Below the pieces are notes generated by a model. That model was not told the origin of the DNA, made no database searches, and saw only the letters and a list, made by a program, of their open reading frames with translations. A stretch of DNA of 10,813 nt from Hyphomicrobiales bacterium. Lineage in GTDB: Bacteria > Pseudomonadota > Alphaproteobacteria > Rhizobiales > Beijerinckiaceae. Positions 3,362 through 3,691 of the stretch are shown here, piece by piece. The position numbers and the translations under genes are program-made. The DNA lies in NCBI GenBank assembly GCA_003567055.1, contig PXAW01000486.1:1-10813 (forward strand), written 5' to 3'. Position 1 is the stretch's first letter. The number at the start of each line of letters is the position of its first letter.

Positions 3362-3477
3362 GTCTCGCCTCCTGCATTGCGCATTGTCGTGTCCTGTCCC
3401 AAACGAAAACGCCGGGACGCGGTTCATGCGGAACGAGGCAAAACTAACGCCGAATGCTGGAGGGCGCGCTGTTTACA

Positions 3478-3492
3478 TTAGGTTAGGGTTAA
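3478..3492 (-). promoter_or_regulatory. Near-consensus CtrA box upstream of rcdA
   Basis: On the minus strand this reads TTAACCCTAACCTAA: TTAA, seven bases, then CTAA, one mismatch from the CtrA consensus TTAA-N7-TTAA, with the favoured TTAACC half. It ends 116 bases before the RcdA-family start codon and lies downstream of the terminator at 3507-3536, so it belongs to the rcdA promoter region. A clear -10 is not visible. Binding is inferred. Confidence 0.45.
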
Positions 3493-3506
3493 CGCTGTGG
3501 ATGAAT

Positions 3507-3536
3507 CAAAAAAAGAGCCGCCGGGAAGGCGGCTCT
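3507..3536 (-). terminator. Strong intrinsic terminator, leftward
   Basis: On the minus strand a 9-bp perfect stem, AGAGCCGCC / GGCGGCTCT with a five-base loop (3514-3536), is followed directly by a run of seven T (3514-3508). It stops leftward transcripts coming from the DUF1192 side before rcdA. It is 156 bases past the DUF1192 stop, with a CtrA-type box in between, so it may mainly end a separate small RNA. Confidence 0.9.
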
Positions 3537-3595
3537 GAAGTCTCAACAGGGAGGCGTCAAACAGAGTGGACAGGAGCCACTCGACATCCAGAAGT
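3507..3595 (-). ncRNA. Candidate CtrA-controlled small RNA with CUCC-rich loop
   Basis: No convincing ORF exists here. On the minus strand, downstream of the CtrA-type box and a -10-like GATATT, about 89 nt lead to the strong terminator. The predicted RNA contains stem GAGTGG/CCACTC (3582-3564) with loop CTCCTGT, a single-stranded linker with CGCCTCCCTG, and the terminator stem. A short CCAGA..TCTGG hairpin overlaps the probable 5' end. Exposed CUCC/CCUCCC stretches are complementary to Shine-Dalgarno sequences, as in several alphaproteobacterial trans-acting sRNAs. The alternative is that this is simply the 3' untranslated region of the DUF1192 mRNA. The transcription start is estimated, not known. 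Confidence 0.5.
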
Positions 3596-3599
3596 CTGG

Positions 3600-3640
3600 A
3601 ATATCTGATTCATAAACCGGAAAGCTTAAGGAGTGGTTAA
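3600..3640 (-). promoter_or_regulatory. Perfect CtrA box with promoter-like -10 (putative sRNA promoter)
   Basis: At 3626-3640 the sequence is TTAAGGAGTGGTTAA, an exact TTAA-N7-TTAA match; read leftward it is TTAACCACTCCTTAA, which also keeps the favoured TTAACCA half. The distal TTAAGC (3629-3624) can serve as the -35, and GATATT (3605-3600, four of six to TATAAT) follows after 18 bases. CtrA-activated promoters commonly carry the box over the -35. No gene starts on the plus side within 400 bases, so the leftward reading is favoured. Confidence 0.6.
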
Positions 3641-3691
3641 CGCCTCGTTTCCAATTGAGATTCATTGCGCGAAAATGACACATGGCCAAGC

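Follow-up and report, generated by a model that had tools for sequence, protein, structure and literature searches.

BjrC1505, the RNA of Rfam family RF02356, has reportedly been seen as a discrete small RNA (sRNA) in Bradyrhizobium and Rhodopseudomonas. Madhugiri and colleagues (RNA Biol 2012) are said to have verified it by Northern blot and to have found it at lower levels in nodules. No link of BjrC1505 to CtrA or to rcdA was found in the literature, supplements and most subscription journals lying outside the coverage of the search. For their cluster A, Brilli et al. predicted that the regulation of RcdA by CtrA is conserved in evolution, according to the accessible part of their report (PMC2877005). 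In S. meliloti, CtrA binds the rcdA promoter region in ChIP-seq, and in the excerpted text of the same study the expression of rcdA is unchanged upon CtrA depletion (PMC4433202).

The locus described here lies on the minus strand of the window, the whole stretch of 10,813 nucleotides (contig PXAW01000486.1, assembly GCA_003567055.1, Hyphomicrobiales bacterium) that was analysed. The first-pass annotation of this DNA had reported a CtrA box, a hairpin, a CCUCCC stretch and a terminator one after the other on that strand. All of these elements were found, in that order, and the observation as a whole is confirmed; its interpretation is partly supported. The annotation recognised no named family, which was wrong: in an Rfam search, minus-strand positions 3648–3508 match RF02356 over the whole length of the model with 106 bits, the cut-off being 50. 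The RNA family is thus already known; what is new is the promoter, in which a CtrA box is conserved, together with the association of the sRNA with rcdA. The sRNA is flanked by a DUF1192 gene upstream (PF06698, 3692–3901, identified by family search) and a DUF1465 gene downstream (PF07323, 2837–3361), all on the same strand. PF07323 is a family that we take to be that of RcdA; among 14 control genomes its sole match is in Caulobacter. The longest open reading frame of rcdA begins at 3427, and we chose 3361 as the likely start since the relatives begin there.

The predicted RNA of about 95 nt occupies 3508–3602 on the minus strand, as indicated by the Rfam match, a match to our own model and the fold (−36.1 kcal/mol, z −4.75). 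Our model was built from 46 homologues with the promoter DNA excluded; it carries only the terminator pairs, and its E-values are rough. Twelve of the 58 first-set loci are outside the training alignment (L027, L030, L032, L039, L043, L047, L052–L055, L057 and L058), being weak, mis-oriented, truncated or identical in their RNA to another locus. Hairpin 1 (3587–3600, TCCAG-ACTT-CTGGA) and hairpin 2 (3564–3582, GAGTGG-CTCCTGT-CCACTC) are seen in the fold, with double-sided changes in 5 of 6 and 4 of 6 consensus pairs, respectively. They are followed by an intrinsic terminator (3508–3536), detected in a terminator scan, with a 9-bp stem at 3536–3514 and a 7-T run at 3514–3508. Over the three-hairpin consensus, which was named from one member (L001), double-sided changes occur in 14 of 20 pairs. 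They amount to 54 cells against 14.3 in shuffles, and none of 500 shuffles was as high. When the partner columns were slid by 1–3 positions, pairing fell from 89% to 38–54%. RNAalifold by itself predicts the terminator as the only structure in the homologue alignment. The terminator with its 7-T tail, as annotated, is conserved and covarying; its support comes from this conservation, because the number of terminator-like sites in the scan does not exceed that in shuffles (1 found, 1.4 expected).

The near-invariant part of the RNA in the homologue alignment is a 17-nt core, TTTGACGCCTCCCTGTT, at 3545–3561. It contains the anti-Shine-Dalgarno CCTCCC at 3554–3549, so that the second CCUCCC stretch of the first-pass annotation lies in the most conserved part of the RNA. 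The same annotation had given weight to the CUCCUGU loop of hairpin 2. This loop is present in the window, but it is absent from more distant members, and the conserved core is UUUGACGCCUCCCUGUU rather than this local loop. In the comparison with relatives, which had been proposed as a check, the box and the terminator are conserved, and the loop is lost in those more distant members. A mini-ORF reading TTG-ACG-CCT-CCC-TGT-stop was also considered and rejected, the stop being at that place in just 50 of 91 sequences.

The CtrA box (TTAACCACTCCTTAA, 3626–3640, minus strand) has the exact form TTAA-N7-TTAA and is the sole exact site of the window. Such a site had been called unlikely to be random, and the shuffles agree: the window holds one exact and one one-mismatch site where 0.12 with up to one mismatch are expected, and two such sites were reached in 2 of 200 window shuffles. 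The one-mismatch site (TTAACCCTAACCTAA, 3478–3492, minus strand, from the motif scan) is a second, weaker CtrA-like box in the gap between the terminator and rcdA. The assembly, 3.19 Mb long and some 75% complete, contains 21 exact sites, each listed on both strands as the motif is palindromic. Among 109 distinct upstream regions, drawn from the 46 training loci and the 65 named rcdA loci where the promoter-free model found the RNA, the box is exact in 62 and has one mismatch in 41 (shuffles 0.9 and 9.1). This set is biased, as 46 of its loci were found through the Rfam model and the first positions of that model lie on the box.

A clean test was made with 98 order-level regions that were found with the promoter-free model and are absent from the earlier set. 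They stem from a held-out set of 103 of the 134 places hit by the model; places in training genomes, second copies, some of the weaker places and one lying at the start of a contig had been excluded. Of the 103, 5 were then dropped as duplicates or too short. The box is exact in 40 of the 98 regions, has one mismatch in 53 and two in 5, compared with 1.3, 11.9 and 39.1 in dinucleotide shuffles. A box with at most one mismatch is thus present in 93 of 98 loci against 13.2 in shuffles, counts that are not independent events because genomes within one order are related. The interval from −400 to −320 of the same 98 loci, largely coding and hence an imperfect control, gave no exact and 1 one-mismatch site. 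Exact sites with spacings of 4, 5, 6, 8, 9 and 10 numbered 0, 2, 0, 1, 0 and 3 in the held-out regions, against 40 at spacing 7; one-mismatch sites at those other spacings numbered 16–34 each. CtrA is predicted to bind this box.

The geometry of the promoter is also largely fixed. The gap between box and RNA measures 22–24 nt in 83 of the 109 regions; of the 93 held-out regions whose box has at most one mismatch, 67 show this gap. Across 81 aligned upstream regions, TTTCC-like columns come after the box, and a TAT-N-AA hexamer (T69% A86% T66% N A67% A48%) stands 11 nt beyond it; 41 of these regions have their best TATAAT-like hexamer at the same offset. In the window the hexamer is TATGAA at 3609–3614 on the minus strand, 11 nt from the end of the box, and is the probable −10. 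GATATT, which had been proposed for this role, lies at 3605–3600 and overlaps the predicted start; it is not conserved, a congener (L005) having GACATT. The start of the RNA near 3595 is probably wrong as well: since TATGAA is the conserved hexamer, the 5′ end in the window's species is predicted at about 3602, and hairpin 1 (3600–3587) would therefore be part of the RNA. GAATC, a GANTC site of the CcrM type, overlaps the probable −10 at 3607–3611, and in Bosea relatives the hexamer is flanked by two GANTC sites. As a general feature near the −10 the GANTC site was rejected, being lineage-limited (20 of 109 loci, 9.3 expected).

Measured from the predicted start, the box occupies about −38 to −24, and a full TTAA-N7-TTAA thus stands in the −35 region, as in CtrA-activated promoters. 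Full CtrA motifs lie near −35 at activated promoters, for example at −39 in Caulobacter ctrA P2, in the accessible text of PMC4287350; the 5′ end of the present box, at about −38, is comparable. As its −35 region would be the CtrA box, the promoter, which points leftward, would most likely be activated by phosphorylated CtrA. The opposite role, with CtrA as a repressor at the box and a housekeeping polymerase driving the sRNA without CtrA, appears highly improbable to us. In Caulobacter, CtrA can act as a repressor from half sites (PMC4287350, as excerpted), and the −35 is ambiguous either way because the search of this region gave no sigma-70 consensus pair; a full box in the −35 region, with a defined spacing to TAT-N-AA as here, is, by contrast, the activating geometry according to the same partial source.

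The family is widespread in the order. RF02356 matches were obtained in 30 of 41 relatives, 26 of them above the cut-off, and in 30 of 289 genomes of the class, 14 of them above it; the 14 control genomes, Caulobacter included, gave none. From the order, 150 genomes were sampled, and the promoter-free model matched 131 of them at E ≤ 1e-6. At E ≤ 1e-5 it found the RNA upstream of rcdA on the same strand in 65 of 80 named rcdA loci; the other 15, some cut short upstream and many from Methylobacterium relatives, gave no match at this threshold, and the RNA of those Methylobacterium relatives may have diverged rather than be absent. At least two hits of the sRNA model per genome were seen in G249, G041, G334, G405 and G327, two of those in G249 lying within 300 bases. 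In the class as a whole, weak hits in 123 of 289 genomes (E ≤ 1e-3) were not counted as members, because the promoter-free model holds only terminator pairs. Among 24 class-level hits with E-values from 1.5e-8 to 1e-5, a 25th (L166) being skipped as its locus is cut short, the box was exact in 4, had one mismatch in 5 and two or more in 15; shuffles gave 0.1 exact and 1.1 with up to one mismatch. In eight of the weak class-level loci (L379, L381, L382, L387, L388 and L392–L394) a common hairpin, ACGTCTCC(C)AGACGT, precedes GAAGCCTCCCTGTT, with a terminator after it. Theirs is apparently another anti-Shine-Dalgarno RNA, lacking the CtrA box. The weak hits are a mixture, in agreement with their exclusion from the family.

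The rcdA gene lies downstream in 37 of the 58 first-set loci, in a search that used the RcdA protein of the window and covered flanks of up to 1.5 kb (L039 being mis-oriented). With 15 RcdA proteins as queries, it was found adjacent and on the same strand in 97 of the 103 held-out loci. Such synteny would be expected if the stretch were the 5′ leader of rcdA, the box serving rcdA and the hairpins and terminator forming an attenuator. CtrA does activate rcdA in Caulobacter (PMC4433202, as excerpted), and Agrobacterium rcdA has several transcription start sites, its predicted CtrA site lying at a greater distance upstream than the one in Caulobacter, as described in the available portion of PMC10469942. 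The leader explanation is nevertheless unlikely in our judgement. The terminator is conserved, and rcdA often has a CtrA-like site of its own: one with at most one mismatch is present in 50 of 92 gaps between sRNA and rcdA, where about 3 are expected from mononucleotide shuffles. BjrC1505 has, moreover, reportedly been seen as a discrete RNA.

Further evidence against a leader comes from 10 loci outside the order where RNA and box occur together, with rcdA missing, at another place or at a distance of 1.5 kb. All 10 keep the box (6 exact, 4 with one mismatch), at a gap of 22–24 nt in 8 and of 12–13 in two. The distance to rcdA is 41–45 kb in G081, G207 and G304, about 3.4 kb in G223 and 1.5 kb in G097. 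No rcdA was found in G041 and G125; in G119, G234 and G320, which are less sure cases, it is on a different contig. A bias remains, because these loci belong to the training set and were found via the Rfam model, to whose score the box contributes; their membership of the family does not rest on the box, because the RNA parts alone score 50–85 bits with the promoter-free model. L044, with its RNA near a contig end, and the weak loci L054 (exact box) and L058 (one mismatch) were left out. On balance, the assignment of the box to the sRNA promoter is favoured.

S. meliloti Ak57 carries a divergent copy of the sRNA between the DUF1192 and DUF1465 genes, with an exact box at L167:2171–2185 and the RNA at about 2201–2308 (promoter-free model, E 1.2e-8). 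RF02356 is its best Rfam family at 27 bits, below the cut-off, and the core is reduced to CTCCCTGTT. A second exact box, at L167:2345–2359, precedes the DUF1465 gene. The presence of CtrA at S. meliloti rcdA and the unchanged rcdA expression upon depletion in the excerpted study (PMC4433202) speak against a leader; a CtrA-driven sRNA between the box and rcdA might fit them. The first-pass annotation had proposed that the sRNA has a gene of its own, with a CtrA box. This is strongly supported by the comparison of genomes and by the loci where RNA and rcdA are apart, the latter with the bias of the Rfam model. From the sequence evidence, we consider it quite probable that the stretch is such a gene under CtrA control.

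Transcription would stop at the terminator of the sRNA, before rcdA is reached, and give an RNA of about 95 nt. This RNA would probably act in trans: its unpaired UUUGACGCCUCCCUGUU would pair with Shine-Dalgarno regions, so that a group of mRNAs is translated less during the phase of the cell cycle in which CtrA is active. Translation control, as suggested in the first-pass annotation, is a plausible inference in that no other part of the RNA is as conserved as the CCUCCC core, but the target tests were negative. We give repression through anti-Shine-Dalgarno pairing an even chance. Duplex energies were compared with 173 background start regions under a simple rule for open reading frames, which is a crude test. 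The start region of rcdA was slightly better than background, 40% of which was at least as strong (141 regions), and GGAGGC was not enriched in this rcdA test (27 of 183 versus 17 of 113); rcdA was rejected as a target. When four congeneric genomes were searched for ACAGGGAGG ahead of an ATG, the pattern was found at the gene of a PIN-domain-like protein in 3 of 4 and at that of a small protein in 2 of 4. The small protein is present in just 7 of 41 relatives, and neither gene is put forward as a conserved target. In G003, ACAGGGAGGTCGTGTCCATG occurs at 14 places among the matches listed and is perhaps a mobile element.

The target tests also included ctrA, which would be expected as a target if the RNA were the Hyphomicrobiales counterpart of Caulobacter CcnA, acting on ctrA and gcrA mRNAs. 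CcnA is a non-coding RNA with a predicted CtrA site, and its C-rich loop contacts the G-rich 5′ regions of ctrA and gcrA (PMC8959179, in the part available). The ctrA start regions were average in 21 genomes, a mean of 53% of the background being at least as strong, so that this crude energy test shows no preferred pairing and ctrA is rejected as the preferred target. CcnA also lies at a different locus, in the origin region (PMC4287350, as excerpted). We regard this counterpart as improbable.

We propose, tentatively and with somewhat less than even confidence, that BjrC1505 is an order-wide output of CtrA, an anti-Shine-Dalgarno RNA that forms a post-transcriptional arm of the CtrA circuit beside the gene of RcdA, the adaptor of CtrA degradation, and that explains CtrA binding without rcdA change in Sinorhizobium. 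If CtrA drives BjrC1505, this master regulator of the cell cycle has an sRNA output that has gone unnoticed in most of the sampled Hyphomicrobiales genomes. Such a link between CtrA and the sRNA would also offer a reading of the S. meliloti result, in which CtrA is at rcdA and rcdA is unresponsive. Some of the RcdA sites of Brilli et al. may be the box of the sRNA.

Among known RNAs, RF02356 BjrC1505 is the one that the window RNA resembles in hairpins, core and terminator, with no structural difference. Positions ~8–22 of the Rfam model fall on the CtrA box in our reading of the alignment, so the first third of the model is probably promoter DNA and not RNA, and the family boundary may perhaps have to be shortened. 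The 3′ part of the RNA (window 3500–3578) resembles the suhB/mmgR and SorX sRNAs below the cut-offs. With RF00519 (suhB/mmgR) it has CCUCCCU, AGACUU and the terminator in common; the 5′ part is not common, and membership was rejected at 29.7 bits, below the cut-off of 41. The 3′ likeness is perhaps a common module of anti-Shine-Dalgarno and terminator. GspR (SmelC775) of Sinorhizobium is likewise a CtrA-linked sRNA of the same order, but its gene lies between SMc03844 and SMc03845 (PMC5928217, as excerpted). SMc03845 is srlA, encoding a thioredoxin-fold protein and not RcdA, according to the accessible part of PMC9561847. In the excerpted account of its authors, GspR is limited to Sinorhizobium and has no known promoter signatures upstream (PMC5928217). 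Identity with GspR was rejected because the loci differ, the S. meliloti copy lying between the DUF1192 and DUF1465 genes and GspR beside srlA. CcnA of Caulobacter, compared by its description, is at another locus, and the pairing with ctrA is unsupported for the window RNA; the two are alike as non-coding RNAs with a predicted CtrA site and with C-rich stretches suiting ribosome-binding sites (PMC8959179, in the part available).
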